The notes under the pieces are model-generated. The model was not told the origin of the DNA. It was given only the letters and a program-made list of their open reading frames with translations, and ran no database searches. This document shows, in pieces, positions 10,499 through 64,000 of a stretch of 64,000 nt of DNA. Position 1 is the first letter of the stretch. The number at the start of each line of letters is the position of its first letter. The position numbers and the translations under genes were made by a program. This stretch comes from Anthopleura xanthogrammica (taxonomy: Eukaryota; Cnidaria; Anthozoa; Actiniaria; Actiniidae): assembly GCA_964019055.1 (NCBI GenBank), contig OZ025206.1, positions 27,526,128-27,590,127 of the forward strand, read 5' to 3'.

Positions 10499-10825
10499 TT
10501 ACTCTACTGGTTTCTCACAGATAAAGGGTTTTTTCTCAAGGCAGTGTCTACCAAACCACTGACCATCTTTTCCTGCGGCTGCGCAGTGGTGATTGGTCAC
10601 CAGATGCTTCATGTTGCGTGACATCATCAAAGCTGTGAAGTTATCATGTGGGCTGCCATCTGACCATGAAAACTGACTGGTATGGCTCGTCCTGTTTAAG
10701 CCAATCCAAACAGCTGACAGGTCTGGAATATCAATCGCTGAAAGAAAAAGAAAGTAGGTGAGAAGGAAAGAAAGAAAGAAAGAAAGAATGACAGACAGAC
10801 AGACAGAAAGACAAACAGACAGACT

Positions 10826-10899
<74 letters not shown>

Positions 10900-10920
10900 A
10901 AGAAAGAAAGAAAGACAGAC

Positions 10921-10979
<59 letters not shown>

Positions 10980-24588: not shown

Positions 24589-24861
24589 CACTGGAAGTTT
24601 TTACTCTACTGGTTTCTCACAGATAAAGGGTTTTTTCTCAAAGCAGTGTCTACCAAACCACTGGCCATCTTTTCCTGCGGCTGCGCAGTGGTGATTGGTC
24701 ACCAGATGCTTCATGTTGCGTGACATCATCAAAGCTGTGAAGTTATCATGTGGGCTGCCATCTGACCATGAAAACTGACTGGTATGGCTCGTCCTGTTTA
24801 AGCCAATCCAAACAGCTGACAGGTCTGGAATATCAATCGCTGAAAGAAAAAGAAGTAAGTT

Positions 24862-25213
24862 AGAATGAAAGAATGAAAGAATGAAAGAATGAAAGAATGA
24901 AAGAATGAAAGAATGAAAGAATGAAAGAATGAAAGAATGAAAGAATGAAAGAATGAAAGAATGAAAGAATGAAAGAATGAAAGAATGAAAGAATGAAAGA
25001 ATGAAAGAATGAAAGAATGAAAGAATGAAAGAATGAAAGAATGAAAGAATGAAAGAATGAAAGAATGAAAGAATGAAAGAATGAAAGAATGAAAGAATGA
25101 AAGAATGAAAGAATGAAAGAATGAAAGAATGAAAGAATGAAAGAATGAAAGAATGAAAGAATGAAAGAATGAAAGAATGAAAGAATGAAAGAATGAAAGA
25201 ATGAAAGAATGAA
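24862..25213 (+). repeat. GAATGAAA octanucleotide array in last intron of copy B
   Basis: About 44 near-perfect 8-bp units, in the same intron that holds GACA repeats in A and CTGT repeats in C. Confidence 0.97.
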
Positions 25214-26149
25214 GAAAAAAAGACAGTGTCGATAACTAGGACATTTGCATTATCGCGTAATCGATCTCTCCTTCCAGAATCCTTACCACCAGTTTCTTAG
25301 CCCCACTATTCTCATGAGGAAATACAAATTTGAATATGACAGAAAAACGCGAAGCATTCTGGTAGTGGTGGTCAAATGACGCCATCAAGCAAACGTCCTA
25401 TTAATATTCTTTCTTTGATTTCTAATTAAACATTAACTGGTTTGATAAATAAAATAAGAGCGGTCCCGGCCCTGTTGGAGTGTTTACAAGGTCAAAGCAT
25501 GTAGGCTGCTGTTATAAGGTATAGTCATAGATTGTCTCGGCTGTTGAATGCACCTTGACTTCATCTCCAAATTCACGCCCTAATTTAACATTGGAATACG
25601 TCTCTCGTGGTTGGTTGACCGTATTCCACTGACATGGATTAATAGCATGAATAAGAAACCCGAAAAGCATTTCAAATTGTTGACTTACATTGTGCAAAGT
25701 CTTTCTTGATCTCATTGATACTGAGTTTTCTGTTATACATTTTCAAATTGCTCATGTGTCCTTTGAACGAGTTTGAAATGCTTGGATCGTAAAAATTGTT
25801 ACTCTTCATCCCAATGGTATAGTAGGAAGTATCCTCGGTCATTGCTCCTGAGAAGGTGTCAGGGATGTTTAATGTGTCTTTTATTATACCATTAATGGCG
25901 ACTTCTACTGTCGTTGTACTGTCATCACTTTTCCAACTTACGGCGATATGCGTCCAAACTCCGAACTCAATACTAACAAAAATAAGACATGGACGTCATT
26001 TTTTCAAGCAAATTAAAACTCAGAGAATTGACAGTCAATATCACTGGATGGAGAGAGGTCCTTATAATATGCAAAAGGAAAAAAATGTGCTGCACCTCCC
26101 CTCCGTGGCCCCTGCCCTATAAAGATGCAAATATGATTCAGTACGTCTT

Positions 26150-27612
26150 CTACCGTGTATTGCAATGCTTTACCATGTACTACTATGCATTACCATGCAC
26201 TACAAAGTACTACCATGTTCTTTCTCCAAGTACTGCCATGTCCTACAATGTCTCCTTTAATGTACTGCCATGCTCTACCATGCTCTACCATGCACTGCCA
26301 TGCTCTACCATCACTGCCATGCACTGCTATGCTATACCATGTAGTGCCATGCTCTACCATGCACTGCCATGCTCTACCATCACTGCCATGCACTGCTATG
26401 CTATACCATGTACTGCTATGCTATACCATGTACTGCCATGCTCTACTATGCACTGCCGCGCTCTACTATGAAATGCCATGCTCTACCATGCACTGCCATG
26501 CTCTACCATCACTGCCATGCACTGCCATGCTCTACCATGCACTGCCATGCTCTACTATGCACTGCCATGCTCTACCATGCACTGCCATGCTCTACCATCA
26601 CTGCCATGCACTGCTATGCTATACCATGTACTGCCATAATAATTAAATAATAATAATAATTTTATTTCAAAGCATCTAACTAGGTCTCGATGCTTTAACA
26701 ATATAACAATAAAAATAATATAGACAAATAATAAAAAAATAAAACGATAAAAACATATATATATAAATATTAACGCGTATACACCGAATCGGAAGTGATG
26801 CCATGCTATACCATTCACTATCATCACTGCCATGCTCTACCATGCACTGCCATGCTCTACCATGCTCTGCCATGCACTGCCATGCCCTACTATTTACTAC
26901 CATCACTGCCATGCTCTACCATCACTGCCATGCACTGCCATGTTTTGCCATGCACTGCCATGCCCTACTATTTACTACCATCACTGCCATGTTCTACCAT
27001 GCTCTGCCATGCACTGCCATGCTCTGCCATTCACTGCCATGCACTGCCATGCTCTACCATCACTGCCATGCACTGCCATGCTCTACCATCACTGCCATGC
27101 ACTGTCATGCTCTGCCATGCACTGCCATGCTCTGCCATGCTCTGCCATGCACTGCCATGCCCTACTATTTACTACCATCACTGCCATGCTCTACCATCAC
27201 TGCCATGCACTGCCATGTTTTGCCATGCACTGCCATGCCCTACTATTTACTACCATCACTGCCATGTTCTACCATGCTCTGCCATGCACTGCCATGCTCT
27301 GCCATTCACTGCCATGCACTGCCATGCTCTACCATCACTGCCATGCACTGCCATGCTCTACCATCACTGCCATGCACTGCCATGCTCTACCATCACTGCC
27401 ATGCACTGCCATGCCCTACTATTTACTACTATCACTGCCATGCTCTACCATCACTGCCATGCACTGCCATGCCCTACTATTTACTACTATCACTGCCATG
27501 CTCTACCATCACTGCCATGCTTTACCATTTACTATCATCACTGCCATGCTCTGCCGCGCACTGCCACGCCCTACTATGTACTACCATCACTGCCATGCTC
27601 TACCATGTACTA
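26150..27612 (+). repeat. CCATG-rich minisatellite with 10-bp base unit
   Basis: Variants of CTGCCATGCA and CTACCATGCT, mixed with CATCACTGC, over 1.4 kb in intron 5 of copy B. Longer blocks repeat within it (the CCCTACTATTTACTACCATC block recurs several times). No stop-prone motif occurs, so all plus frames run open for about 270 codons; this is a composition effect. Confidence 0.95.
26637..26800 (-). mobile_element. Short LINE 3' tail inserted in the minisatellite
   Basis: On the minus strand it reads GCATCGAGACC, TTAGATGCTTTG and an ATT-repeat tail; it splits the CCATG array. The same 3' end type as 15040-15260. Confidence 0.65.
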
Positions 27613-28454
27613 GTTTGTACTGTGTACATTATATAATTTTACATTGACAAAAAAGGAATTATGGTACGTAGGGGCTTTTTATATCTAAGGTTATACGAGG
27701 TGGGGGGGGGGGGGGGGGGCCTTGAAAAAGTCTTTGACGTACGTCAATGGCAAGCAGGGTCCTCAATTTATCATCAGTTCTCCCAAACAATTTTTTGTGA
27801 ATGCTTCCTTATCATAGTGGATTTCTAGTATAACTGTTGAAATGATTGCGAACTACACTTACCTTATTATTTCAGTTGTCTTGGTAGAGGGACTTGTGTC
27901 AGTTTTTATTAAAAATTTGATCGATTTCATGTTTCTATTCAGCCAAATCTGGATACTGGGCACAGGATATCCATTGAATATCATAGGATACTTGGCTATG
28001 GATTCGAGGAATCGAACCCAAAGAATAATAGTAAATTCTGTTGTTAATCGAACAGCAGGTATTTCAACTAAAGTTTTATCTCCACTGAAATACAGCGCTT
28101 TTCGTCCATCAGCCACTTCGTATCGTACCTCACCCGTGGTGATCTGGAACCTTTCAAGATAATAAGAGATCATGTGGTAGAAGTTAGTGTTACCCTCTCT
28201 GACTAGATCCTCATAACTGCTTGAATCTCATTCAAAACTCACTAAAACTACCTCTTCACGTGACTCACTCACGTCATCAAAGGTGTCGTGTTACGATCCT
28301 CACATTAGTACGAGCACGGGCCGCGGCGTTAAGACCGGTTGACACAGTACAGCTTTTGCTTACAACTGTCGCATGCAATCTGCTTATACGCCACGCTTCT
28401 CGCGCCACGGATCGCCTTCGGTTCGCTATATAAAAGCGCCTCTGGAAACTGGCT

Positions 28455-28575
28455 ATTACAACACGAAATACGTCGTGTAAATCAACCCTACAACTTGCTA
28501 CAACTTTTTTCTTGTTATACACAACAGTTGTGAACAAATTGTAGGGTTGGCTTACATGACGCATTTCGTGTTTTA
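28455..28575. repeat. Hairpin in intron 4 of copy B
   Basis: ACACGAAATACGTCGTG and AACCCTACAACTTG are mirrored by CAAATTGTAGGGTTGG and GACGCATTTCGTG. A small imperfect palindrome, probably a MITE relic. Confidence 0.6.
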
Positions 28576-29322
28576 CGCATTGTACGGATAAAAACTGGTA
28601 TACATTCGATAGAAGAACGTTTAGTTCTATGACACATTTTATAAAACCTTTGAATATTCCGAAGCATCGCAACGAAAAAGTGGGTGGCCGTTACAAGTTT
28701 CAACCCCCTTATGAGTTACTGGACTTACTTGATATCTTGTATTATTAGTACTCTGTATTATTATCATTCAGTACTATTATTATTATTTCAAAATTTGGAG
28801 AGATCATTATCTTTGTCCGTTTATAGGAAGAAAAAACTTACAAGGATATAATTTTTTCCCCTTTAAAATTGGCCTCAAATATGCGTCTATCCTCTTATCG
28901 AACATATTAGCCAATCAGCAATCGAGAAATTGTGGTAAAAAATCAAGCACCTGATCGGTGAAAGGAGAATGAGTTTATCTTAGAGAAATTATTAAAGTAC
29001 TATAAGATATGGTAAGTAATGCAATTTTTTTTGCATCGGTATAAAGTGTTTAAAGTACACATAGTATTAAACGTGTTTTGACTTACTTGATATCTTTGTC
29101 TGTACCGTCCAGTCTAAACTGAGCCACTCCACCCTCTAGTGATGTACCTTAACCATAAATAAGAAAAGGTCTTAGTTTCGATACCAGCAGCAGTTACTTA
29201 CAGGTTAAAAAAGACGTGGAGGAGGATGGTTGATTGGGTGGCTAGCCACCCAAATGAAATAATCCTAATCATGATTGCCCACATGTAGTCATGTATTTAA
29301 TATACTGATTTTGGATGTAGTT

Positions 29323-29672
29323 TTACAGTCAAAATGGCTCAAGCGTACCCCCCTAAAATCCATTAATTATTAATGGATTCTTGATGAATTAATGAATTCA
29401 TTATTCGAATATTGAGTTCATTATTCACTGTGACTCCAAATTGAAAGTAGATTATCTACTTCAGTTTTGATTCGATTCTTCAACAATTGCCATGCCAAGG
29501 TAGAAAAACTCCCCAGAAAGGCATCCCTTAGAATTTTAGTGTGAAATAAATGTTAAGTTTGGAGTCTTCCGATTTTTTAATGAAAACTCAGAGTGAATAA
29601 TCAACTCAATATTCGAATAGTGAAATCATTAATGGAGCATACGGGCGTACGCTTGAGCTGTTTTGACTGTAA
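29323..29672. mobile_element. 350-bp MITE in intron 3 of copy B
   Basis: Left end TTACAGTCAAAATGGCTC is mirrored at the right end (GAGCTGTTTTGACTGTAA), with further inverted pairing inside (CTCAATATTCGAAT). No ORF. Confidence 0.75.
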
Positions 29673-29985
29673 GAGTAGATTTTAAAGCAATAAATTAGAG
29701 AGAAAAAAATTCTTTAGTCTCAGCTTCCTTGTCTCTCTCCACGTACCGTATCTCATCAGTCTAATTTGACTAAAATCTCTTCCTTACGGGACCTATCTCG
29801 CTTTATTGGGTGATAAACGTCCATGTATGTGACGTGTATGGTCTCTCCAATTGGATCAAAGTCATGAATTATTCATGATCATGAGTTTGAGATATATATA
29901 TTTACTTATTATATAGACACTTGTATTTTACTGAGAAATACGCCACTCATATTTTTAATATAAAATAAAATATAAATAATAAAAA

Positions 29986-30229
29986 TAAATGAGAATTAAC
30001 AGTGGAATCCACAGAGTGGCTCTTACTCCACTGCATTCCAATTGGAATTTAGAAGTTGATTTTTGAGGAGGGAGGAAAAACCGGAGAACCCGGAAAAACC
30101 CTCGAAGCACAGGAGAGAACCAACAAACAACTCTACTCACATACGACACCGAGCCCAGCGGGGCTCGAACTCGGGTCGCCTTGGTGAGAGGCAAGCGCTC
30201 TCACCGCTACACCACCCGTGCTTCCCAAA
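29986..30229 (-). mobile_element. tRNA-derived SINE, near full length
   Basis: Minus strand: head GGGAAGCACGGGTGG, A box GGTGTAGCGGTGAGAG, B box GAGTTCGAGCCCC, then a body with TCTCTCCTGTGCTTCGAGGG. Same family as 59469-59722 and the fragment at 46668-46802. Confidence 0.85.
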
Positions 30230-30357
30230 TAATATGAACTAGATCCGGGACCTCAGTGACATATTTTCCATCACTTCACACGTGACGTCACATCCTATCT
30301 TTTCTCACTCAGGATCGGTCAAAATGGACGCCAAATGAGGTTTTTTTCCGGGATTTG

Positions 30358-30487
30358 TCTATATAATAAAAAGAAAATTACACGTTGGCTTGAAGATATG
30401 AAGTTTATCTGCGTTCACTCGTGAAATATTTTCACCAGGAGAAGATAAACTTCATATCTTCTCGCCACCGTGTAATATCCTCTATAT
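30358..30487. mobile_element. Small palindromic MITE in intron 3 of copy B
   Basis: ATTACACG and GAAGATATGAAGTTTATCT are mirrored by AGATAAACTTCATATCTTC and CGTGTAAT; borders are TATATAAT/CTCTATAT-like. Confidence 0.7.
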
Positions 30488-31039
30488 GTTAAGGTTATCG
30501 TGATAAACACATTAAATGAAAAAGAATATTTTCTCCACAAATTCTGGATACTGTTTTGACTTACCATTCGTGTTGTTCATACGGTCTTTCACGAATACAT
30601 TGTACGCAAAATCATTTTCATGATGACTGGAGATTGACATGAGGTCTCCACCCAGGGACTGGCAATAACTGCGAGCATCCAACCACGTCAAGATCCCGTC
30701 CTTGAAGAGTTTTAGAGCAACTTTACCATACCTATACCAGCCATTCCCAAGATCTGAATAAAATCAAGTGAATTAAGACCGACTGACTATAAATATTGCC
30801 TTTAGCGTTCAAAACGAAAAATATCGAATTTTCTTGCTTGAAATGAAAATGTTTTTATAAGTTACTGGTAAGAAATACCAAACAAAAAAAGCTGTACGGT
30901 AACATTTTAATTTTACACTTCAAATCTTTGAAGAAGTTTTGTAAAATATTGGTATACATTTCAAAAAAGGTTGTTGGAGGCAAAAGAAGATAAATAGTGG
31001 TTTGAGCATGCGCATTAATAACCACTGACCCATCAAATC

Positions 31040-31428
31040 ATTGCCGAGTTTTATATCGTGAGGGCCTGGGTACGAGTCCCTAAAGTGTGATGATGACAAC
31101 ACAAAACTCACATAGCCAAAGAGAACACATCGAGCTATACAAAATTCCGAAGTTTGGTGTTAGTCGGATCATTATTGATGAACTTACAGCCATTCAAAAA
31201 TACAAAGAAATGTATGGTGTCCGGATAAAATGTCAGGACACGATACATTTCTTTGAAAATTCTAGCATTTTTGAATGTCTGTAAGTCGTTCAATATTGAT
31301 CCGATTAACACCAATCTTCGGGATTCTATAAAGCTCGAAATGTTCTTTTTGGCTATGTGAGAATTGTGTTGTCATCATCACAATTTAGGAACTCGTACCC
31401 AGTGCCTCACGAGATGAAACTCGGCAAT
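31040..31428. mobile_element. 389-bp MITE with long inverted arms
   Basis: Starts ATTGCCGAGTTT and ends AAACTCGGCAAT. The arms pair over most of the element (CTCACATAGCCAAA; GTTGGTGTTA/TCGGATCA). Comparison with the same intron in A shows a clean insertion. Confidence 0.85.
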
Positions 31429-31502
31429 GGCACAAGAATCTTCCGGAGGAAGAAGGAAACGAGAGAATTGTGTAAAGAAAAACTAGTTAAATGCATAGGC
31501 GG

Positions 31503-31683
31503 CAGAATTCCTTCCTTCCTTTCCTTCTTTCCTTCTTAGAACCTTCCTTTCTTCCTTTCTTCCTTTCAATATCTTTCTTTCCTACCTTTTTGTTCCATCC
31601 ATCCCTCCCTCCCTCCCTCCCTCCCTCCCTCCCTCCCTCCCTCCCTCCCTCCCTCCCTCCCTCCCTCCCTCCCTCCCTCCCTC
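31503..31683 (+). repeat. TTCC/TCCC microsatellite
   Basis: CCTT-type units followed by about 22 CCCT units, at the point where copy B stops resembling copy A. Confidence 0.95.
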
Positions 31684-32467
31684 GATACCTGCTGCAATGT
31701 TGACCTATATAGGTTTATCCACCTGTTCTACTCTAATTATACGTGTTATAAAGAAGAGATAATTAGTATTAAAGGTAATTGAGCACAGTTATGCTCTCTG
31801 TGATGGGCGCTTTTAAGGGTCCTTCCTCAATTTTTCTGATTTTGTACGGAAATTCCAAAAATGTAATTTTGACACATTTGTGCTTATTATTCGCACCCAA
31901 AAGAAAATGCCGGTCAATTGGCACCTGAATCATGGTAGCAATGTCCTCTTCCAATGTTAGATAATCTATTTATATTCAAGGTGAGTTAGCCGAGTTATTT
32001 ATGTTCATGTAATTTCACCTCAACTTTGTATTTTAGTGAAAAGATTCCAAAGACAAGATTTGAAACATGTAAACAGATTTGACCAAGGATAGCTTCTAGT
32101 TTCAAGAGGAAAAGAAGTCACTCTTTTATTTGAACATTGCAATAAAAGTCAAAAATCACATAATATTAGATAAGAAAGGGTATTCATGTTTGACAATAGA
32201 GGTATAAGGAATAAATCTAGGCCTAGCATTCTCCACATTATTCTTTTTTCCAAAGCATGTATCATAAGTCTATTTTAGTTTATCAAGAAGCTCATATCTA
32301 AAAAAAAAATGTTTTTCGACTTATTTACTTGGTTCAAATGTGAAGCAAACATTTTGCATTGAATACGACATTGGTATTTTGACTACCTGACGTCAACAAA
32401 AACTAGATTTCACTTTGTCAAATGTCTAGTGCTTGAGATAAAAACAAATTCATAAACTCTTAATGAG

Positions 32468-35400
32468 TGTACTGTCGCACTTTGTAATAAATCATGTCGC
32501 ACTTTGTAATAAATCTGTCGCACTTTGTAATACCTGTCGCACTTTGTGATAAATCATGTCGCACTTTGTAATAAAAAAGCTGTCGCACTTTGTAATAAAT
32601 CATGTCGCACTTTGTAATAAATCATGTCGCACTTTGTAATACCTGTCGCACTTTGTGATAAATCATGTCGCACTTTGTAATAAAAAAGCTGTCGCACTTT
32701 GTAAAAAATCATGTCGCACTTTGTAATAAAAAAGCTGTCGCACTTTGTAATAAATCATGTCGCACTTTGTAATAAATCATGTCGCACTTTGTAATACCTG
32801 TCGCACTTTGTAATAAATCTTGTCGCACTTTGTAATAAAAAAGCTGTCGCACTTTGTAGTAACCTTCGTCGCACTTTGTAATAAAAAAAGCTGTCGCACT
32901 TTGTAATAAATCATGTCGCACTTTGTAATAAATCATGTCGCACTTTGTAATACCTGTCGCACTTTGTAATAAATCATGTCGCACTTTGTAATAAAAAAGC
33001 TGTCGCACTTTGTAATAAATCATGTCGCACTTTGTAATAAAAAAGCTGTCGCACTTTGTAATACCTGTTGCACTTTGTAATAAATCATGTCGCACTTTGT
33101 AATAAAAAAGCTGTCGCACTTTGTAATAAATCATGTCGCACTTTGTAATAAAAAAGCTGTCGCACTTTGTAATAAATCATGTCGCACTTTGTAATAAAAA
33201 AGCTGTCGCACTTTGTAATAACCTTCGTCGTACTTTGTAATACTCATTACCAAAGAGTGCATAATATATATAAAGCGTTATTGACCAAGTGTATTTTGAT
33301 CGATCAACACTGCATGCATGAGATGACGTCATTGGTCACGTGGCTACACACCTTACTGATACCAATGTACAAAATGTCACAGTTAGAGTGCAAACAGTAT
33401 ATCTGTGAAACATTTGGCAAAACAAAATTGCACAAATTTGTACAAATTCTATTGTTTTCTATAGTTTAATTAGCACCATTTTGTGCTATTTAGTAATTTG
33501 TATTTCACGGATATACTGTTTGCACTCTAGTCGTAAAAATTTTCCATCTCAAAATTTGGCAAAAGTTTCATAAACATATGAAAGATAGCATGTCAAGCTT
33601 ATGAAAAAGCCAAAGAAAATGTTTTTTTTAGGGAAAACGGCCATTTTTCGTATCCCAATACCTTAATACTAATTTTGTAACAGATCATTTAGTTGAAAAA
33701 AGAGTAAGTTGTATTACGACTGTTTTCATTGCTACGCGCTGATCGAGACAACCGTCGCGACAGGGTTATCGGGCAATACACTGCCGTCAATCAATTAAAT
33801 GGTTAGATTACCTAAAGGTAAATGCCTAGCTCTGACTTTCTAAATGCTGAAACCTGACGTTCGATTGGTCATTTCTCATGAGAACAACTAGGATATGGAA
33901 CGTTCTCAATCCCCTTCCCTAAATTTGAAATGCTCCTTCTGCTGCCTCTGGACTATTCGTTTTCACTTCTATTAATGAAAAACAATCTTTGAATACAAAA
34001 AAAAAAATGGGTTTCGATTCAGCAAACATAAGCAGTATTCTAAAATGAATTGGTTACATGTATTCAAATATTAATCAATCCGTTAAGACGAAGAACTGAT
34101 AGAGTATACTGTGCTTCGACGCTTATATGCTAAACATGTTGCAGCTTACGTTTTAATTATATTATGCACTCTTTGGTAATAAGTATTACAAAGTGCGACG
34201 AAGGTTATTACAAAGTGCGACAGCTTTTTTTATTACGAAGTGCGACGAAGGTTATTACAAAGTGCGACAGCTTTTTTATTACAAAGTGCGACAAGATTTA
34301 TTACAAAGTGCGACAGGTATTACAAAGTGCGACAAGATTTATTACAAAGTGCGACACGTATTACAAAGTGCGACAAGATTTATTACAAAGTGCGACAGGT
34401 ATTACAAAGTGCGACAAGATTTATTACAAAGTGCGACAGGTATTACAAAGTGCGACAAGATTTATTACAAAGTGCGACAGGTATTACAAAGTGCGACAAG
34501 ATTTATTACAAAGTGCGACAGGTATTACAAAGTGCGACAAGATTTATTACAAAGTGCGACAGGTATTACAAAGTGCGACAGATTTATTACAAAGTGCGAC
34601 AGGTATTACAAAGTGCGACAAGATTTATTACAAAGTGCGACAGGTATTACAAAGTGCGACAAGATTTATTACAAAGTGCGACAGGTATTACAAAGTGCGA
34701 CAAGATTTATTACAAAGTGCGACAGGTATTACAAAGTGCGACAAGATTTATTACAAAGTGCGACAGGTATTACAAAGTGCGACAAGATTTATTACAAAGT
34801 GCGACAGGTATTACAAAGTGCGACAAGATTTATTACAAAGTGCGACAGGTATTACAAAGTGCGACAAGATTTATTACAAAGTGCGACAGGTATTACAAAG
34901 TGCGACAAGATTTATTACAAAGTGCGACAGGTATTACAAAGTGCGACAGATTTATTACAAAGTGCGACAGGTATTACAAAGTGCAACAAGATTTATTACA
35001 AAGTGCGACAGGTATTACAAAGTGCGACAAGATTTATTACAAAGTGCGACAGGTATTACAAAGTGCGACAAGATTTATTACAAAGTGCGACAGGTATTAC
35101 AAAGTGCGACAAGATTTATTACAAAGTGCGACAGGTATTACAAAGTGCGACAAGATTTATTACAAAGTGCGACAGGTATTACAAAGTGCGACAAGATTTA
35201 TTACAAAGTGCGACAGGTATTACAAAGTGCGACAAGATTTATTACAAAGTGCGACAGGTATTACAAAGTGCGACAAGATTTATTACAAAGTGCGACAGGT
35301 ATTACAAAGTGCGACAAGATTTATTACAAAGTGCGACAGGTATTACAAAGTGCGACAAGATTTATTACAAAGTGCGACAGGTATTACAAAGTGCGACAAG

Positions 35401-35503
35401 ATTTATTACAAAGTGCGACAGGTATTACAAAGTGCGACAGATTTATTACAAAGTGCGATAGGTATTACAAAGTGCGACGATTATTACAAAGTGCGACAGT
35501 ACA
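32468..35503. mobile_element. Foldback-type transposon with tandem-repeat arms
   Basis: Left end TGTACTGTCGCACTTTGTAA and right end TTACAAAGTGCGACAGTACA are exact inverted copies, flanked by a 5-bp duplication ATGAG (32463-32467 and 35504-35508). The arms are arrays of a TTACAAAGTGCGACA core: left 32468-33245 (spacers of three kinds), right about 34180-35503 (regular 41-bp double unit, about 28 times), inverted to each other. The arms continue into unique sequence (CTCATTACCAAAGAGTGCAT at 33245, mirrored near 34155). The 0.9-kb centre has no transposase, so it is non-autonomous. The design resembles Drosophila FB elements. It sits in the part of copy B that replaced exon 2. Confidence 0.85.
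33385..33528. repeat. Inner 144-bp hairpin of the foldback element
   Basis: 26-bp arms with one mismatch: AGAGTGCAAACAGTATATC at 33385 and its complement ending at 33528. May be a smaller MITE nested in the centre. Confidence 0.8.
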
Positions 35504-36095
35504 ATGAGGCTAATTTTTAAAGCCAGCCGGTTCTCTTGCCGGTTCTTCAAGTACAGTGGCAAAACATAGTTCAAGTTAAAACTGTTCACGACATGTGCTC
35601 ACATGGTTTTTCCCACTCCATGGCAATTTGATTGACACATTTTATACCCATATTTACTTAGCCTGAGTGCAGCCTGACTTTTACTCCAGAGTTATATTCT
35701 GGCTGCACGCAGGCTATTTTTTACTGTCACCTCAAGATATTGCAAATAACAATCACAATGAGTCTTATCTGCTTCAACCACATTACTTTCGATTTCTCGA
35801 TAATGGCTTGAATGTATGCAGTTTACAGATCCATATACTAAAAATAGATTTCACACCACTGGACCCCCCGCATGACTCAGGCAAACAAACCTCAACATTT
35901 ACAGTAAATGTATGGGAGTTCAATCTCCAATCACTGTTTTTTACAATTTATCAACGTTTTTTCCAACAAATCACCATATACCGAAAGATATCTAAAGAGA
36001 TATGCACAGCACTAAGAATACTTGCACAGGCAACCCAGTGAACACTCCCAGAGCGTCGAGTTTATTATGTATTTGCGTAATTACCAAGAATGTAA
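35504..36095. other. No gene seen (intron of copy B)
   Basis: A 124-codon plus frame (35667-36041) has no recognisable domain. AGCCTG...CAGGCT pairs at 35659-35714 form a short hairpin. Confidence 0.5.
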
Positions 36096-36488
36096 AAATA
36101 ACTATGACAAACTGCATAGTAAGTAATTAATTTAGGTGACAGTTTTGACTAAACGTCAACTCACCCCCATCTGGTGGTAGTCTGTTCCTTCTATAGATAC
36201 CAAGCTACCAGGACTCGCCCTCTTGCTGGAATTATTCAGATCACATTCAACGGAACCCCAACTAGTATGACGAACGTTGACCGAGAAGCACCATGGTAAC
36301 CATACACAGGTATCCCAACAAACTTGTTCTAGACTCGCTGTCATGGTTTTGATCACGTGATTTACTAGTGCCTTTCCTCCTTCTTTGACGAAACGATAGG
36401 CTTCACACGATTCGGCGAAGGAATTACGAAATGACGCGAATTGTAAAATGAAAACAGCGAGAACAAGGAACTTTGTGTTGATATTCAT

Positions 36489-44270: not shown

Positions 44271-44277
44271 GACAGAA

Positions 44278-47200
44278 ATGAATATCAACACAAAGTTCCT
44301 TGTTTTCGCTGTTATCATTTTACAATTCGCGTCATTTCGTAATTCCTTCGCCGAATCGTGTGAAGCTTATCGTTTCGTCAAAGAAGGAGGAAAGGCACTA
44401 GTAAATCACGTGATCAAAACCATGACAACGAGTCTAAAACCAGTTTGTTGGAACACCTGTGTATGGTTACCATGGTGCTTCTCGGTCAACGTTCGTCATA
44501 CTAGTTGGGGTTCCGTTGAATGTGATCTGAATAATTCCAGCAAGAAGGCGAGTCCTGGTAGCTTGGTGTCTATAGAAGGAACAGACTACTACCAGATGGG
44601 GGTGAGTTGACATTTAGTCAAAACTGTCACCTAAATTAATTACTTACTATGCAGTTTGTCATAATTATTATTTTCCCTGGTTTCCTCCCTTCTCGAACGA
44701 GCTCAGCCCGTATAAAATGACGGCCCTTATGAATTTACCGTGGAGTTTTTCGAGATAAATGCAATCGAACCTTAGTGCCCGTAAATGTAGAGAGGTGTCA
44801 GTGCCGTGCCGTGTCGTGTATGAAAACAGCTGACAATTCGGTGCCGTGTCCTCGCCGTGCCGTAACCGTGCCGTGTGCCGTGAACATGCTTAGCTCGGTT
44901 GGTTAGTGCGCGGCCTTAGGGGCTAGAGGTCTGTGGTTCGATCCTCATGATCCACGTCTGTTTTGACTTCTTTCTAATCCGTGTAGCTTCAGCTTTGAAA
45001 ACAGAGCACCGTCGGCCTCCATTGATAGGAGTTGAATTTCAACTGAAGGAACTACCGACATTAGAGTGAAATATCTAAACCTGTAAAATAAAAATTGCTT
45101 GTGAAAAAGAAATATTCAAATAGACACACAAGAAAACAATGGAATAAGTGTCTACTAAAGTGTATTAGTCTAATATCTAATATCTTCAAATCTTTGTAAT
45201 TTCTTTTCGTTTCTCCTTTTCATCTTGTGTTACCATTATTTGTATTTAATGTTGTTGTATTGTTATTAGATTTAGTTATACAGGTCCCCATTTAAACCAG
45301 CTATGCTGAATTGGGCAACCTGTTTAAATATTATTTTAAAAAAAATCTATTTCACGGGTTTAGTGATTTCACTCTAATTATTGGAACTTTACTTTACTTT
45401 ATTTTGACTTTTCACACTCATACCAAACAAGTGACAAGTGGGATATCCCATGGTGTGCAAATAGTAAGCATTGTGTAACTATTTTACCCAACATCATTGA
45501 AAATACCTAGACTGACATCCAGACCGCAATCCATAATGTTCCACAGTGGAACACCGCTGAACATACAACGAATTTCCAGCATTCTGATTGGCTGTATTTT
45601 TAATGGTGTGAGATGAGTATATCTCTAACACTATAAATGGTTAATATAGTATTTTTCCCACCAGGATGTGCCCGATTATCTGAAACAAGCAACGGAAGTC
45701 AAAAGAAAAGAAGGTTTGTTCAGTTATGAAAAAATTAGTTGAACAAGATGAGCAAAATTTTATGAGCTGCATGTTATTGGCACCGAGGAGCCATAGAAAA
45801 GGCAAAAACAAGTCTGGTTCAACCATTGTCATTCAACAAATTCCTATAGCTGATTTCTTTTCTGTTTTTACTAGTTTTCTTATACAGTACAGTTATCTCG
45901 TTTCCTTTCTCCTCCGAAAGACTGTAGTGCCAGGATTTGATGAATCAGTGGCCATTAATGCGCATGCTCAAACCTTTGCCTTCAACAATCTTTTTTGAAA
46001 TATACCAGTACAAATAAAATACTTCTTGAAAGGCGAGCTTATTCCCTGATAGATTTGAAGAGTAAAATCGAAATGTTACCGTGCACCTTTTTTTGTTTGG
46101 TATACGTATTTCTTTCTAGTAATTCATTACTGAACATTTTCATTTCAAGCTACATGAAAGATTTTTCTTTTCGTTTTTGAGCGCTAAAGCAGGGACTGCG
46201 GAGATGTTTTTTCTTTAATATTTTCCAATCGTGGTCAAATCTCAAGCTCCCTATTTACAGTCAGTCCGAGTCACTCAGTCTTAATTTATTTTATTCAGAT
46301 CTTGGGAATGGCTGGTATAGGTATGGTAAAGTTGCTCTAAAACTCTTCAAGGACGTGATCATGACGTGGTTGGATGCTCGCAGTTATTGCCAGTCCCTGG
46401 GTGGAGACCTCATGTCAATCTCCAGTCATCATGAAAATGATTTTGCGTACAATGTATTCGTGAAAGACCGTATGAACAAAACGAATGGTAAGTCAAAACA
46501 CTATCCAGAATTTTTGAAAATAGTTTGTTCAAATTAGATGAGTGTAGTATGTGGAGAGGGGCAAGGAAGCTGAGACTAAAGGATGAATAATCTCTTTTAA
46601 AAGACCTTTATTTACACCATATTATTTTCCTCTCTCTTATGAATAAAACAAATAAAATAAAAGAGAATTAAAATTAGATTCCACAGAGAGGCTCTTCTTC
46701 CACTCATTCTAATTGGAATTTAGAAGTTGATTTTTGAGGAGGGAGGAAAAACCGGAGAACCCGAAAAAACCCTCGAAGCACAGGAGAGAACCAACGAACA
46801 CTGCTTCGTAATCTAGGAACACATTAGATTAAATAGATGAATGCATGTGGGCTATCGTATAATAATTTCATTTGGATGGCTAGCCACCCAATCAACCTTC
46901 CCCCTCCACGTGTTTTTTGTAACCTGTAAATTACTGCTGCTGGTATCGAAACTAAGACCTTTTCTTATTTATGGTTAAGGTACATCACTAGAGGGTGGAG
47001 TGGCTCAGTTTAGACTGGACGGTACAGACAAAGATATCAAGTAAGTCAAAACACGTTTAATACTATGTGTACTTAAAACTCTTTATACTGATGCAAAAAA
47101 ATTGCATTACTTACCATATCTTATAGTACTTTTATACCTTTAACTCATTCTCCTTTCACCGATCAGGTGCTTGATTTTTATAGAATAAGGAGAAGACCAG

Positions 47201-50200
47201 AGAATAGGCCTTTTGCAGGAAATCACGTGACTGGAGAGCAAAAATATTCTTGCTTTCCTTATTCAAAGAACTTTTGCAGGATTACAAATGTCATATCCAA
47301 AACCTTTTTCAAAAATACTATTTTTCCTCCCTCACATTCCAATTGGATCCTGGGCTTCAGCTCTGTTGTGAGTGTCCCACGATGTGATACAAAAGATTGA
47401 CTCCGATTTGAGCACTTCGTCTTGAATGCCTAAACCCTGCCTCTGTATCTGTGACTCTTGACTCTTCGTGAGCTGATTTATTCTCCGTGGACCACAACAA
47501 GACTCTCATGTTTTCCCTTTTTCTTTCTGTCTCGACGTTTTTCATATTAATTATATCCATTTTGAAATCACAAGCAAATTCTGCAATCTGATTGGCTTTC
47601 AGCAGTGCGATTTATTCATTTATTATATCTTATTATATATATATATATTATTATATCGCACCATTTTGAGTTTTAAATCGCACTGTTTTGAAGAGCCAAT
47701 GAAATTGCAGAAAGCATAATATTTTATAAATCAGATCACAGAAAACAAACATTTTGAAGGAGATTTTGCAATTAATGATTCAAAATAGTGCAATTAATGC
47801 TTAAATCGCACACTTTGTAGCCAATCAGATTTCAGGATTTGCTAATGATTATTCATTTATTATATCTTATTATATATATATATATTATTATATCGCACCA
47901 TTTTGAGTTTTAAATCGCACTGTTTTGAAGAGCCAATGAAATTGCAGAAAGCATAATATTTTATAAATCAGATCACAGAAAACAAACATTTTGAAGGAGA
48001 TTTTGCAATTAATGATTCAAAATAGTGCAATTAATGCTTAAATCGCACACTTTGTAGCCAATCAGATTTCAGGATTTGCTAATGATTATTCATTTATTAT
48101 ATCTTATTATATATATATATATTATTATATCGCACCATTTTGAGTTTTAAATCGCACTGTTTTGAAGAGCCAATGAAATTGCAGAAAGCATAATATTTTA
48201 TAAATCAGATCACAGAAAACAAACATTTTGAAGGAGATTTTCTAGGTGAAAATAGATGAAATTTAAAAAATGGATTTAAATTTTAAATTCCTACTGTAGT
48301 GATTTTAAAATGGATATAATTAAGTGGTAATTGAACTTCGTGTCGTGCAATTTTGGTCTGAAATTAAACTCGTGATTAACAAATTTGATTTCAGACCTAA
48401 TCATATCCATTTTGAAATCATTAGCAAATCCTGAAATCTGATTGGCTACAAAGTGTGCGATTTAAGCATTAATTGCACTATTTTGAATCATTAATTGCAT
48501 CATTTTGTCAAACAATCACTTTTGAAGCTACATATAACTGTTGAGTATTTTAATATATTAAGTTTCAAAATGGAAATGATTAATAGGTAATAGAACTGAG
48601 TGTCTTGCAATTTTGGGCAGAAATCACACTCGTGATTAACAAATTGCACTCCCGCTGCGCGGTCGTGCAATTTTGTAATCACTCTTGCGATTTCAGCCCA
48701 AATTGCACTCAACTCAGTTCTATTACCATTATAAATTGCACTCCACTCAGTTCAATTACCATTATGAATTTTTATCACGTGACCTCTAGGATAACATATA
48801 ATTTACATAAATAGTGTTTCCATGACACCGCGGTCCATGGTCGTACACTAACTTCTACCACGTGATCTCTTATTATCTTGAAAGGTTCCAGATCACCACG
48901 GGTGAGGTACGATACGAAGTGGCTGATGGACGAAAAGCGCTGTATTTCAGTGGAGATAAAGCTTTAGTTGAAATACCTGCTGTTCGATTTACAAGAGAAT
49001 TTACTATTATTCTTTGGGTTCGATTCCTCGAATCCATAGCCAGGTATCCTGTGCTATTCAGTGGATATCCTGTGCCCAGTATCTGTATTTGGCTGATAAC
49101 AAGCGAAAAATCGATCAAAGCTTCATTAAAAACTGACACAAGTCCGATTACCAGGACAACTGCTATAAGGTAAGTCTAGTTCACGATCATTTCGACAGTT
49201 ACACTAGAAATCCACTATAATAATGCTGCTTTCTAGACCAAGACTCAAGGACTGTTACTAAGGGCCGTTCTAGACGCTGCTTCACTCATGCGACGAGTTT
49301 ACAGCACTTTTCATTCACACGCGCAAAATCGTACAATTTGCTGTCGCGACGAAGTTGCTTTTCAAGGTGCTTCCACAACATTCCACGTGGCACGTGCCTT
49401 GATAAGTTTGTGTTTTCCGACAATAATGTCAAGGATAAACTTTTATTGACGTCTACCAAAACATATGCATGAGATCGAATTTCTAGCACAAAGCATGATG
49501 GGAAAGTGAGTCCTTACGCTTTTTTGGCTCCTCTAAAAATTCATCTGACATTTTTTCCTTCGATATTTACTATGGAAATGTAAGCATTTCAAAATTTCCT
49601 TTGATTTCGCTGTTCCATTTTTGCATGACTCAGTTTCCCAGAGTGCGGCTTTGTGGGCTTTGAAGCACATTGCCTGTAGACCTTTTTTCAAAAATAGCGG
49701 CCGCAAATTCAAATGAATCAAAATTAAGCTAAGCTGTGAAAAACCAAACCAGCACTAGAAAGAGCATCTTTATAGCTATTCATTGTTTTAGGTGTTATAT
49801 CGGCCGAGAAAACGTTTTTTGAAAATCGACAAATTTTATACAGTAGTTTGTATGGCTGGGGGTATAGCGTATACAAACGTCTGTAAATTTGTCGATTTTC
49901 AAAAAGCGTTTTCTCGGCCGATATAACACATGACATAATGAATCTTGTAAGGTTACTAAAGTAAAGATGCTCTTTCTAGTGCTGGTATTGGTTTATAATT
50001 TCAACTCATTTGAATTTTCGGCCGCCATTTTGGAAAAAAATCAATTTATTTGGAGCAACAAATACGGCGTTCTTTGTGCTGAACCTAATTCGCAGGGACC
50101 ACGGAAGGGGAGGGGCAGCCCCACCACTTTTTTCTTTTTGCATATTATAAGGACCTCTCTCCATCCAGTGCTATTGACTGTCAATTATTTGATTTTTGCT

Positions 50201-50978
50201 TGAAAAAATGACGCCCATGTCTTATTTTTGTTAGTATTGAGTTCGGAGTTTGGACGGATATCGCTGTAAGTTGGAAAAGTGATGACAGTACGACGACAGT
50301 AGAAGTCGCCATTAATGGTATAATAAAAGACACATTAAACATCCCTGACACCTTCTCAGGAGCAATGACCGAGGACACTTCCTACTATACCATTGGGATG
50401 AGCAGGGGCAAATTTTACGATCCAAACTATGTAAACTCGTTCAAAGGACACATGAGCAATTTGAAAATGTATAACAGAAAACTCAGTATCAATGACATCA
50501 AGAAAGACTTTGCACAATGTAAGTCAACAACTTGAAATGTTTTTCAGGTTTCTTATTCATGCCATTAATCCATGTCAGTGGAATACGGTCAACCAACCAC
50601 GAGAGACGTGGTTCAATGTTAAATTAGGGTGTGGTTTTGGGGATGAAGTCAAGGTGCATTCAACAGCCGAGACAATCTATAACTACACCTTCTGAAAGCA
50701 GCCTACATGCTTTGACCTTGTAGACACTCCAACCGGGCAGGGACCGCTCTTTATTTTTTTAAATTTTAGTTTTTGATTAGACATCAAAGAAAGAATTTCA
50801 TCAGGACGTTTGCATGATGGCGTCATTTGATCGCCACTACCAGAATGCTTCATGAATTTCCTTACGTATTCAAACTTGTATTTCCTTATGAGAAAAGAAG
50901 ACAAATTGGTGCTAATGAACTGAACAAAAGAAAGTGTGTAAGGGATTCTAGTAGTAATGCAATCGTCCTAGTGACACT

Positions 50979-51009
<31 letters not shown>

Positions 51010-51200
51010 GTCTGTCGCCTGCGGCTCGCCATTTTAAATCCCCATAAAGGTCTCCCGCTCATGTTTTATCTATCACTTATTATATATTATTACATATTAA
51101 TCATTTTATAACGACTTCCATGTAAAGAAGTTTTTATACTTTTGGAACAATCGTTTTTAAATGAAGGTGCTATCTATCTATCAATGAATCAATCAATCAA

Positions 51201-51293
<93 letters not shown>

Positions 51294-51441
51294 TTTTATT
51301 ATATAATTTGAAATTTTCTTTCATATTTAATGTCGTACATATTGTATATATACCCAGACTCTTTTTATCACGGCTTTCATGTAAAGAAGTTTATAACTTA
51401 TGGAACTACCGTGTATAAATAAAAGTGATTCATTCATTCAT

Positions 51442-51508
<67 letters not shown>

Positions 51509-51791
51509 TTCATTCTTTCTTCAGTTTCTCACCTACTTTCTTTTTCTTTCAGCGATTGATATTCCAGACCTGTCAGCTGTTTGGATTGGTTTAAACAGGA
51601 CGAGCCATACCAGTCAGTTTTCATGGTCAGATGGCAGCCCACATGATAACTTCACAGCTTTGATGACGTCACGCCACATAAAGCATCTGGTGACCAATCA
51701 TCACTGCGCAGCCGCAGGTAAAGATGGTCAGTGGTTTGGTAGACACTGCCTTGAGAAAAAACCCTTTATCTGTGAGAAACCAGTAGAGTAA
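44278..51791 (+). CDS. Copy C: secreted PAN / C-type lectin with nested LamG domain
   Basis: Exons 44278-44601, 45665-45713, 46299-46487, 46980-47040, 48885-49169, 50235-50518, 51553-51791; all GT-AG, total 1431 nt, 476 residues. Residues 1-25 signal peptide; 27-108 PAN/apple-like with five Cys; 109-125 linker; 125-187 CTLD N-half (GWYRYG, ARSYCQSLGG, SSHHENDF); 189-397 LamG jelly roll (GRKALYFSGDKALVEIP, EFTIILWVRF, WTDIAVSWKSDD, GHMSNLKMYNRKLS); 399-476 CTLD C-half (WIGLNRT, HHC, GRHC, FICEK). Exon 3 ends and exon 7 begins in phase 1, and exons 4-6 sum to 630 nt, so the LamG cassette could be skipped in frame. The Ca-binding EPN/QPD and WND motifs are not conserved. The leader exon seen in A and D is missing upstream, so where transcription starts is unclear. 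Confidence 0.87.
44800..44882 (+). repeat. GTGCCGTG low-complexity stretch in intron 1
   Basis: Irregular repeats of GTGCCGTGCC. Related, less expanded sequence lies in intron 1 of A (16960-17050) and D (61100-61200). Confidence 0.7.
44885..45110 (+). mobile_element. tRNA-derived SINE head in intron 1 of copy C
   Basis: A box TTAGCTCGGTTGGTTAGTGC and B box GTGGTTCGATCCTC in tRNA spacing, then a non-tRNA body. A different family from the CACGG SINEs. A functional tRNA is unlikely because the acceptor arms do not pair well. Confidence 0.65.
46668..46802 (-). mobile_element. SINE fragment (3' part) in intron 3 of copy C
   Basis: Same family as 29986-30229; holds the body (GAGAACCAACGAAC to GGAATCTAATTTTAATTC in complement) but not the tRNA-like head. 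Confidence 0.75.
47609..48246 (+). repeat. 237-bp tandem repeat, about 2.7 units
   Basis: Unit starts near 47617, 47854 and 48091; includes TATATATATATATTATTAT, CGCACCATTTTGAG and GCACACTTTGTAGCC. Successive units look almost identical. Confidence 0.92.
48390..48510 (-). repeat. Inverted piece of the 237-bp unit
   Basis: Complement of the GCTTAAATCGCACACTTTGT part of the array. With 47550-47610 on the other side it suggests that the array grew inside an inverted-repeat element (about 47550-48780). Confidence 0.75.
49739..49994. mobile_element. Palindromic MITE in intron 5 of copy C
   Basis: Outer arms ACCAGCACTAGAAAGAGCAT and complement; inner arms TTATATCGGCCGAGAAAACG and complement. About 255 bp, no ORF. 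Confidence 0.85.
50979..51510 (+). repeat. TTTC and CTGT microsatellites with two LINE tails
   Basis: TTTC units at 50979-51016; CTGT arrays at 51201-51293 and 51442-51509. Each CTGT array follows a similar about 140-bp retroelement-like tail (TGTAAAGAAGTTT, TGGAAC). Located in the last intron of copy C. Confidence 0.85.
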
Positions 51792-60569: not shown

Positions 60570-63392
60570 ATGAATATCAACACAAAGTTCCTTGTTCTCG
60601 CTGTTGTCATTTTACAATTCGCGTCATTTCATAATTCCTTTGCCGAATCGTGTGAAGCTTATCGTTTCGTCAAAGAAGGAGGAAAGGCACTAGTAAATCA
60701 CGTGATCAAAACCATGACAACGAGTCTAAAACCAGTTTGTTGGAACACCTGTGTATGGTTACCATGGTGCTTCTCGGTCAACGTTCGTCATACTAGTTGG
60801 GGTTCCGTTGAATGTGATCTGAATAATTCCAGCAAGAAGGCGAGTCCTGGTAGCTTGGTGTCTATAGAAGGAACAGACTACTACCAGATGGGGGTGAGTT
60901 GATGTTTAGTCAAAACTGTCACCTAAAATAATTACTTACTATGCAGTTTGTCATAGTTATTATTTTCCCTGGTTTCCTCCCTTCTCGAACGAGCTCAGCC
61001 CGTATAACATGACGGCCCTTATGAATTTACCTTGGAGTTTTGCGAGATAAACATAGTCGAACCTCTACGCAACGGCCACAGTCGGGAAACATTTTTGTGG
61101 CCGTTTAGAGAGGTGTCAGTGCCGTGCTGTGTATGAAAACAGCCGACATTCGGTGCAGTGTCCTCCCCGCCCCATAACCGTGTTCGTATGCCGTGACTTT
61201 TCGGACTCATACCAAATCAGTTTCTGCTCAATAATCTATTTATCAAGAAGATACAAGTGACAAGTGGGATATCCCATGGTGTGCAAATAGTAAGCATTGT
61301 GTAACTATTTTACCCAACATCATTGGAAATGAATGACACCTAGACAGCAATCCCTGACGGGAAGTAACAGTGGAACACCACTGAACATACGACGGGTTTC
61401 CAACTTCTGATTGGCTGTACTTTCAATGCATCGCCAGAAAACCGCGCCGCTACCCATGTCACGCAAGCTTAACCCGGCTCAGAAGAAAATACGGCCGGCG
61501 AAAAGTTATAAGAAATGTATGGGTTTAACACTGAAACAAAAAGTGTCTAAAATATAGCCTGTGTGTTGGCGGATCAAAAATGTCTGCATCACAATTTGTA
61601 ATTCATTTATAGGACAGTATAAGCTGCAAAAAAATATTACTTTAATCTAAATTGAGGTTTCCTTTTTAAATTTCAAAATGACTCCTAGAGAAATCGCACT
61701 GAAAGCAGAGGTTTGTATGAGAACGGAAAAATAAACGAAAGTTAAATTAGTTTGTAACTCGCCGAAACAGAGAATAGACGACAAAAGAAACAAATGTGTG
61801 CATTCTGAAATATTGTTTAATTATTTGAGCACCAGCTCGAAACTAAGTATCGGCTCTAGGATAAATTCCGAGGTTACCTTTCGATTGCTGAACAACAACA
61901 GCAGTTAAACAGCTTAAAAATACCTCCATGTTTCCCCGTTAAAGTTCGCAAAATGTCACTGACTTCGGGGCTTGATATCTTCGCAAAGAATAAGCCAAAT
62001 CTCGTAGTTGAAACGCCATTTTGAAGAGCAACTCTCGATCGGGGCACACAATAGCATATTTGGTCCCAATATTCAGTGGGACCCCCAGAAAATAGCGCCC
62101 GAATGTATGTACCATCGCAGGAAGGTCCCTAAGCCCGCGAATGAATCAGCGGTTTTTCTTGGAAACGGGTAAACACTTATTAACGCATGCGCAATGCGCC
62201 CATTGAATACCGCTGACCGCACTTGCATGTCGCGGTTTTCTGGCGATGGGTGTGAGGTGAAAAAATCTCGAACACTATGAATGGTTAATATAGTATTTTT
62301 TCCACCAGGATGTGCCCGATTATCTGAAACAAGCAACGGAAGTCAAAAGAAAAGAAGGTTTGTTCAGTTATGAAAAAATTAGTTGAACAAGATGAGCAAA
62401 ATATTATGAGCTGCATGTTATTGGCACCGAGGAACCTAGAAAAGGCATAAAAGCCGGGTTCAACCATTCTCATTCAACAAATTCCTAGTTGATTTTTTTC
62501 TGTTTTTACTATTTTTTCTTTACACAATTCTTCGTTTCAGTCTTTCCTCCTCCGAAAGATTCTAGAGCCAGGATTTGTTGAATCAGCGGTTATTAATGCG
62601 CATGCTCAAACCATTATTTAGCTCCTTTGCCTCCGACAACCTTTTTTTTTTTTTTTTTTTGAAATATACCAATAATACAAACCTTCTTGAAAGGCAAGCC
62701 TATTCCCTGATAGATTTGAAGTGTAAAAATAGATTGTTACCGTACAGCTTTTTTTGTTTGGTATTTCTTACCAGTAACTTATCAACTTTTTCATTTCAAA
62801 CTAGGAAAATTCGATGTTTTTTGAGCGCTTTTTGAGCGCTCAAGGCGATATTAGTGAAGTTTAGATTTGACTACGAGTACGACTACAACAGTTGAACCAA
62901 TGCGAGGACAACTACGAGTTTGTTGTAACATACTTTAAAACGAACAATCTGTTAATTTATTTTATTCATCAGATCTTGGGAATGGCTGGTATAGGTATGG
63001 TAAAGTTGCTCTAAAACTCTTCAAGGACGTGATCATGACGTGGTTGGATGCTCGCAGTTATTGCCAGTCCCTGGGTGGAGACCTCATGTCAATCTCCAGT
63101 CATCATGAAAATGATTTTGCGTACAATGTATTCGTGAAAGACCGTATGAACAACACGAATGGTAAGTCAAAACACTATCCAGAATTTTTGAAGAAATATT
63201 ATTCAAATTAGATGAGTGTAGTATGTGGAGAGGGACAAGGAAGCTGAGACTAAAGGATGAATAAGAGATATATAGACAGAAGCTACTGCTGCTGGTATCG
63301 AAACTAAGACCTTTCCTTATTTATGGTTAAGGTACATCACTAGAGGGTGGAGTGGCTCAGTTTAGACTGGACGGTACAGACAAAGATATCAA
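60570..63392 (+). CDS. Copy D: PAN / CTLD-LamG gene, first four coding exons
   Basis: Exons 60570-60893 (signal peptide + PAN), 62309-62357 (linker), 62973-63161 (CTLD N-half), 63332-63392 (start of LamG), all open, with GT-AG borders and the same phases as A and C. The LamG exons and the CTLD C-half are expected to the right of the window; the last 0.6 kb is intron that mirrors intron 4 of A. The PAN exon is almost the same as in C (TSLKPVCWNTC). The leader exon is retained at 58132-58209. D therefore looks like the most complete plus-strand copy, as A is on the minus strand. Confidence 0.82.
61429..62248. mobile_element. 820-bp inverted-repeat element in intron 1 of copy D
   Basis: Starts CATCGCCAGAAAACCGCG and ends with the exact complement. 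A, C and D agree up to TTTCAATG on one side and GGTGTGAG on the other, so it is a clean insertion 60 bp from exon 2. No transposase frame. Confidence 0.85.
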
Positions 63393-64000
63393 GTAAGTCA
63401 AAACACGTTTAATACTATGTGTACTTTAAACACTTTATACCGATGCAAAAAAAAATTGCATTACTTACCATATCTTATAGTACTTTAATAATTTCTCTAA
63501 GATAAACTCATTCACCTTTCACCGATCAGGTGCTTGATTTTTTACCACAATTTCTCGCGCGCTGATTGGCTAATATGATCGATAAGAGGATAGACGCATT
63601 TTTGAAGCCAAATTTGAAGGAAAAAATATATATCCTTGTAAGTTTTTTCTTCCTATAAACGGACAAAGATAATGATCTCTCCAAATTTTGAAATAATAAT
63701 AATAGTAATAATAATAATAATACAGAGTTCTTGAAAACGCATCTAACAAAAGTCTCGATGCTTTTAACAAAAGGAGCAGACAGACAGCAGGTTGCGATAA
63801 GTAAACAAAAATAGAATAGGAATAGGAATTTATAGTAAAGTAAGCCATGAAAAGCAAATGAGGCTGTATTCAACTAATCAGATTTCCTTGCCGCTAGAAA
63901 AACGGCACGATAACATGAACAAACTCAATCCCAACCAAACTGCGTTTTTTAAAAAGCCAAACTCGAGTACTATCCCAGATGAGACCGTATAGTTTGAGAA
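63393..64000 (+). other. Intron 4 of copy D (partial)
   Basis: Mirrors 14925-15533 of copy A, including the retroelement tail at 63700-63880. No other feature. Confidence 0.75.

Follow-up and report, generated by a model that had tools for sequence, protein, structure and literature searches.

A LamG domain nested within a C-type lectin-like domain in a sea-anemone multigene family

A gene in a 64,000-nucleotide stretch of DNA from the sea anemone Anthopleura xanthogrammica (assembly GCA_964019055.1, contig OZ025206.1, positions 27,526,128 to 27,590,127 of the forward strand; the whole stretch is called the window below) is predicted to encode a complete LamG domain between the two parts of one C-type lectin-like domain (CTLD). 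This gene, copy C, has seven exons (44278-51791, plus strand) with GT/AG at all exon borders, and its exons join into a single 1431-nucleotide frame of 476 residues with a terminal stop. Judged by its predicted protein, the nesting in copy C is real. We consider it probable that copy C belongs to a sea-anemone lectin-like multigene family in which the LamG was inserted once into a loop of the CTLD, with the CTLD as a frame and the LamG as a variable recognition head. What can be read directly from the DNA is the nesting itself, the intron phases, how far the family has spread in the genome, and the contrast between a first CTLD part that hardly changes and a more variable LamG.

The split of the CTLD was evident from Pfam matches of single exons. 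Exon 3 alone matched positions 3-35 of Lectin_C (PF00059) and exon 7 alone matched positions 41-107, and the cassette between them (exons 4-6) matched positions 4-150 of the 151 positions of Laminin_G_3 (PF13385) at 47.6 bits, relative to a cut-off of 27.6; the original prediction of a CTLD divided by a full LamG was thereby borne out. Removal of the cassette from copy C gave one continuous Lectin_C match of 62.9 bits (cut-off 22.6), and with the cassette in place Lectin_C matched in two stretches that sum to 59.1 bits. A test of the cassette for the concanavalin-A-like jelly-roll fold was positive. It had also been proposed that three exons code for the LamG. The domain is indeed complete, but the match starts at cassette residue 46, within exon 5, so that the exon 4 part lies outside it; exon 4 by itself is too short for Pfam.

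As predicted, phase 1 applies both at the end of exon 3 and at the start of exon 7, and the cassette exons total 61+285+284 = 630 nucleotides. The cassette is a phase 1-1 unit, and phase 1 introns on both flanks, found exactly in copy C, are the mark of an exon-shuffled module. The whole module occupies the CTLD loop that links helix 2 to the WIGL strand, consistent with the proposal that the LamG was inserted into a CTLD intron.

A search of 5.8 billion database proteins returned six matches in a protein search, seven in a profile search and six with a plain-form query. Three Actinia tenebrosa proteins, P0001 (LOC116294204), P0003 (LOC116307881) and P0007 (LOC116302779), were nested according to Pfam. 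Like copy C, they carry a PAN-like part, a first CTLD part, a Laminin_G_3 domain and a second CTLD part (35-39% identity), and their insertion point is the same as in copy C. Unlike copy C, they fall in other subfamilies of the same family, and they are named just 'uncharacterized protein'. In another Actinia model, P0009 ('isoform X2'), the LamG leads into the second CTLD part with identical junction residues. The Actinostola model P0002 seems to read through an intron.

Within the window the exons of copy C recur in the same order: copies A and B both have exons 1 and 3-7, and copy D has exons 1-4 (Table 1). Chance is therefore excluded as a source of the nesting. Exons 5-7 of copy D lie past the window end, at C1:27591357, 27592175 and 27593404. 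In copy B, exons 1 and 3 are out of frame without exon 2, and a search of this copy found no exon-2-like stretch above shuffles. Copy B may be a pseudogene, or it may use another exon in place of exon 2. The intron within its region 36488-30753 (minus strand) holds large satellite arrays at 34183-35499 (41 bp x 32) and 32471-33242.

Table 1. Coordinates in the window of the nested gene copies and of the variable LamG patches of copy C.
Feature	Position	Strand	Content
Copy C exon 1	44278..44601	+	signal-peptide-like start (by inspection) and PAN-like domain
Copy C exon 2	45665..45713	+	linker, phase 0 to 1
Copy C exon 3	46299..46487	+	CTLD first part, Lectin_C 3-35; phase 1 at end
Copy C exon 4	46980..47040	+	LamG cassette start, 61 nucleotides; phase 1 at start
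Copy C exon 5	48885..49169	+	LamG first half, 285 nucleotides
LamG variable patch 1	49036..49167	+	exon 5 codons 51-94 (copy C)
Copy C exon 6	50235..50518	+	LamG second half, 284 nucleotides; phase 1 at end
LamG variable patch 2	50395..50439	+	exon 6 codons 54-68 (copy C)
Copy C exon 7	51553..51791	+	CTLD remainder, Lectin_C 41-107, and stop
Copy A	10499..17587	-	seven exons: 17264-17587, 16623-16671, 15765-15953, 15534-15594, 13362-13646, 11459-11742, 10499-10737; open frame
Copy B	24601..36488	-	exons 36165-36488, 30565-30753, 29087-29147, 27863-28150, 25689-25972, 24601-24839; without exon 2
Copy D	60570..64000	+	exons 1-4: 60570-60893, 62309-62357, 62973-63161, 63332-63392

We searched the organism's own genome (a 289.8-Mb assembly of 125 contigs) and took 31 stretches, mostly chosen by matches to just one CTLD part. 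All or part of a nested gene was present in 26 of the 31; three were without one (L009, L027 and L028) and two could not be assigned (L036 and L039). Including the four copies of the window, 30 nested loci were counted, each with the LamG collinear between the two CTLD parts on one strand. These loci are a non-random sample because the stretches were picked by half-CTLD matches, and the C3 cluster holds further pairs outside them. Five of the 30 are weak or partial: in L026 only the second half of the LamG was detected, in the first gene of L020 this half matched at E 0.03, the second CTLD part of L032 is known from one separate search only, and L037 and L038 have a partial second CTLD match and no PAN-like exon within the stretch. 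The search for split CTLDs that the original prediction had called for revealed nested genes both elsewhere in this genome and in Actinia tenebrosa.

Splice phases were tested in 26 nested genes, that is all of the 30 but D, L032, L037 and L038. Downstream of the first CTLD part, the donor with the highest score was in phase 1 in 22 genes and in phase 0 in four; upstream of the second CTLD part, the best acceptor was in phase 1 in 25 and in phase 0 in one. These data bear on the possibility that the LamG exons are a separate gene lying inside an intron of a plain CTLD gene. LamG and CTLD exons share a strand and have matching phases in many loci, and the Actinia gene models join LamG to CTLD exons; on the phases and the joined models we reject a separate intronic gene, which we regard as extremely improbable.

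CTLDs of other kinds were also recovered. In the eight strong CTLD matches L001-L008 the two CTLD parts are adjacent, with no LamG detected between them. L009 and L027, each a split CTLD in which no LamG was detected, were considered as empty insertion sites and rejected, as their best splice sites lack the same phase 1 intron. L028 holds CTLD pieces only. In L036 and L039, which stand outside the count of 30, the first CTLD part is present and the stretch taken yielded no second one. In L036 (G000:C6:15603500-15608300) the first CTLD part is followed by an open frame some 1,000 codons long that by eye resembles a retroelement, and past this frame comes a LamG-like start. Relatives were sought in viral and prokaryote contigs and none were found, and a search of phage DNA led nowhere.

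A single gene might use the cassette optionally, with alternative splicing of exons 4-6 giving both a plain PAN-like-CTLD protein and the nested form. Skipping these exons would keep the frame and yield the better, continuous CTLD match. There is also a natural plain protein, P0008 of Exaiptasia diaphana ('snaclec bothroinsularin subunit alpha'), in which the two CTLD parts are joined directly at what would be the exon 3-7 junction; its place inside the nested clade also fits optional use. Its CTLD parts share 84% and 63% identity with the corresponding parts of P0001; unlike the nested family, P0008 has no LamG between them and no PAN-like match in the model. P0008 is however a single database model that lacks the PAN-like part, and its plain form is perhaps a model omission or a true loss. 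Furthermore, no plain copy with a PAN-like exon was found among the 31 genome stretches. We consider optional use of the cassette unlikely. The picture of a plain gene with an optional cassette, as originally drawn, sits poorly with 30 loci that carry the LamG and with a sole plain relative that lies inside the nested clade.

The position of P0008 was taken from a tree built on the CTLD parts alone (38 rows), in which a single origin of the nesting was not rejected (p 0.459) and P0008 was placed within the nested clade. Placing P0008 outside the nested genes gave a worse tree (p 0.007; p 0.014 without L019-L022), although this test was chosen after the tree had been seen; a first small tree did not settle where P0008 belongs. 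On this test, which its post hoc choice weakens, we reject the plain state as ancestor. Since P0008 lies inside the nested clade, the plain form would be derived or a gene-model artefact, most likely through loss, skipping or a model that misses the LamG exons.

We propose that the helix 2-WIGL loop of a CTLD received a complete Laminin_G_3 jelly roll as a phase 1-1 exon cassette, most likely in a single event. The proteins are probably secreted. The two CTLD parts would still form one domain around the LamG, clasped by a disulfide between Cys155 (exon 3) and Cys471 (exon 7), a pairing that we assume from the CTLD family. Copy C has four CTLD cysteines (Cys 155, 449, 463 and 471), which we take from their positions in the family to be the four conserved ones, and all four are invariant in copy A, P0001 and P0003. 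The best matches of the cassette-less CTLD were solved CTLDs of the mannose-receptor type (IgY receptor, PLA2 receptor, Ly75 and mannose receptor 1), and at the site of the LamG in the nested family these solved structures have only a short loop, a few residues long. When a profile of four Actinia proteins was aligned to solved CTLDs, the match fell into two pieces; about 215 profile positions separate the pieces, compared with five residues in the best chain. This alignment is consistent with one domain formed from both parts. Foldseek and VIA rows were mostly unrelated jelly-roll proteins, toxin binding domains among them, and we claim no relation to toxins.

EPN or QPD and WND are the calcium-dependent sugar motifs of CTLDs, and many CTLDs are without them. 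The CTLD of copy C has no EPN or QPD, and WFG was read from the sequence at the WND place. By sequence match copy C is a CTLD; it would not be a classical calcium-dependent lectin, because these motifs are absent, and for the same reason the CTLD frame perhaps does not bind sugar. The LamG would be held out from it as a recognition head, and its variable patches may recognise extracellular ligands that themselves vary, for example glycans on microbes, on prey or on other animals.

Comparison of the copies showed where the family varies. Copies A and C share 86% identity in exon 5 (14% of sites differ), while the flanking 50 intron bases match at 50/50 and 48/50, that is with 0 and 2 differences. 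The differences concentrate in two patches, codons 51-94 of exon 5 and codons 54-68 of exon 6, and a single 90-nucleotide span holds 35 variable sites, relative to a maximum of 19 in 2000 shuffles. Across four clusters, the share of positions that vary in amino acid was 15-33% in the LamG and 2-20% in the PAN-like part; in the CTLD it was 0-5% for the first part, which was the most constant domain in every cluster, and 4-22% for the second. Variable LamG columns were shared between clusters more often than expected (exon 5, 8 vs 3.7, p 0.034; exon 6, 5 vs 1.6, p 0.015), and no such excess was found in the PAN-like part (p 1), the first CTLD part (p 1) or the second (p 0.29). Variation is thus higher in the LamG than in the CTLD, and it returns at the same places.

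In five disjoint pairs of genes, 6.9% of amino-acid-changing and 5.7% of silent LamG sites differed, compared with 2.6% and 9.4% for the CTLD. The ratio of amino-acid-changing to silent differences per site (pN/pS) of the LamG was 1.25-1.86 in four of these pairs and 0.58 in the fifth, and the amino-acid over silent excess of LamG vs CTLD had an odds ratio of 3.2 (p 0.001, five pairs). This contrast rests on two pairs from C14, whose last exon shows mosaic silent divergence. Selection may lie behind the LamG variation, which we offer as a reading and not as a result.

Several observations weigh against a variable LamG head on a constant, folded CTLD frame that arose once. Without the two C14 pairs the odds ratio fell to 2.4 (p 0.21), in no single pair was the amino-acid rate significantly above the silent rate, and the sole significant single-pair test was a silent excess (exon 6 codons 1-53, B vs C, p 0.031). 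When copy B is one of the pair, exon 5 and its adjacent introns show roughly equal divergence. The CTLD is not uniformly constant, as 22% (C14) and 18% (C13) of the positions of its second part vary, and the first part had a pN/pS of 1.0 in the window cluster. The PAN label of the original prediction corresponds to a sub-threshold match only (PF00024; 13.4 bits, E 0.069, cut-off 21.4). AlphaFold2 gave mean predicted confidence (pLDDT) values of 45 for P0001 and 53 for P0007, with most of the CTLD parts below 50, so that the structural check proposed earlier, run on these two proteins, did not settle how the parts pack. Finally, in the free tree the long branches of the divergent nested group L019-L022 were placed with contiguous CTLDs, and a second origin of the nesting in this group is possible.

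The variation could also be non-adaptive, with change-tolerant loops in the LamG and gene conversion homogenising the other exons. Silent differences are raised in the exon 5 patch as well in pairs with copy A (dS, silent divergence, of 0.36-0.43). Silent divergence of the last exon was 0.34-0.47 in 6 of 10 pairs (C14, C12 and C13; L010-L013 and L016-L018), compared with at most 0.09 in the first CTLD exon, a mosaic that suggests gene conversion. The tests by single pair and without C14 point the same way. Against this, the 50 intron bases on each flank of exon 5 are nearly identical in A and C, amino-acid differences per site exceed silent ones in the LamG of four of the five disjoint pairs, and identical LamG positions are variable in four clusters. 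We give the non-adaptive explanation a little less than an even chance.

A further alternative is that the CTLD parts are relics, degenerate stubs beside a LamG that alone folds and works. The absence of canonical calcium and sugar motifs in copy C, the failure of AlphaFold2 to produce a confident CTLD and the variability of the second part in one cluster would all fit. The near-constant first CTLD part, seen in all four clusters, and the four cysteines kept in A, C, P0001 and P0003 would not, and we regard relic status as quite improbable. The broadest form of our preferred reading, in which the family is a recognition repertoire with the CTLD as a non-binding frame and the LamG as a variable reader, diversified in tandem clusters under selection for new ligands from microbes, prey or other anemones, and the cassette kept, lost or perhaps skipped as a unit, is put forward only tentatively.

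Other features of the window were also recorded. A 237-bp unit (2.7 copies, 47612-48241) in intron 4-5 of copy C is probably a recent expansion, because its copies match at 100%. Just upstream of copy C is a 498-codon open frame (42788-44284, minus strand), by eye similar to the tail of a retroelement protein, with no Pfam match at E 0.001. Two tRNA-Val (CAC) genes lie in an intron of copy B (30151-30222, minus strand) and upstream of copy D (59475-59546, plus strand). At the window edge, a 120-bp tandem array of 6.4 copies (2-767, plus strand) codes for tetratricopeptide repeats (TPR_12, 78.8 bits) and is open at the edge.

The pairing of the two domains has precedents. In the available text of PMC8260672, concanavalin-A-like domains are counted together with CTLDs in cnidarian proteins. 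They rank first among CTLD partners in four of the six medusozoans and in two of the nine anthozoans, and Actinia and Exaiptasia are named as having the largest numbers of predicted C-type lectins. Those proteins have the same two domains as the nested family, but the accessible part gives co-occurrence counts and nothing on one domain inside the other. In the portions available, PMC5094078 reports 70-89 CTLD genes in four Actinia tenebrosa transcriptomes, and PMC11857728 lists concanavalin-A-like as the second most abundant domain in tentacle samples of Actinia fragacea. The database model P0004 (Actinia tenebrosa LOC116307875) joins a reverse transcriptase domain to a nested-family protein and looks like a chimeric model; models of this type may explain some 'reverse transcriptase plus CTLD' combinations in other species in the available text of PMC8260672. 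No description of a LamG nested in a CTLD was found in the literature searched, whose range takes in few subscription journals. The claim that no such protein had been described needs amending: the nesting is already present in database proteins and the pairing of CTLD and concanavalin-A-like domains is already in print, and the nesting itself is undescribed in the literature searched.

Insertion of one module into another by way of an intron is much discussed and, in our judgement, rarely so clean as here, where cassette, phases and family spread can all be read. The family suggests that the helix 2-WIGL loop of a CTLD can accommodate a further domain about 210 residues long, a hint for protein engineering. 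If the variation of the LamG is indeed adaptive, sea anemones would have a recognition family built of a frame and a variable insert, with ligands that are directly testable.
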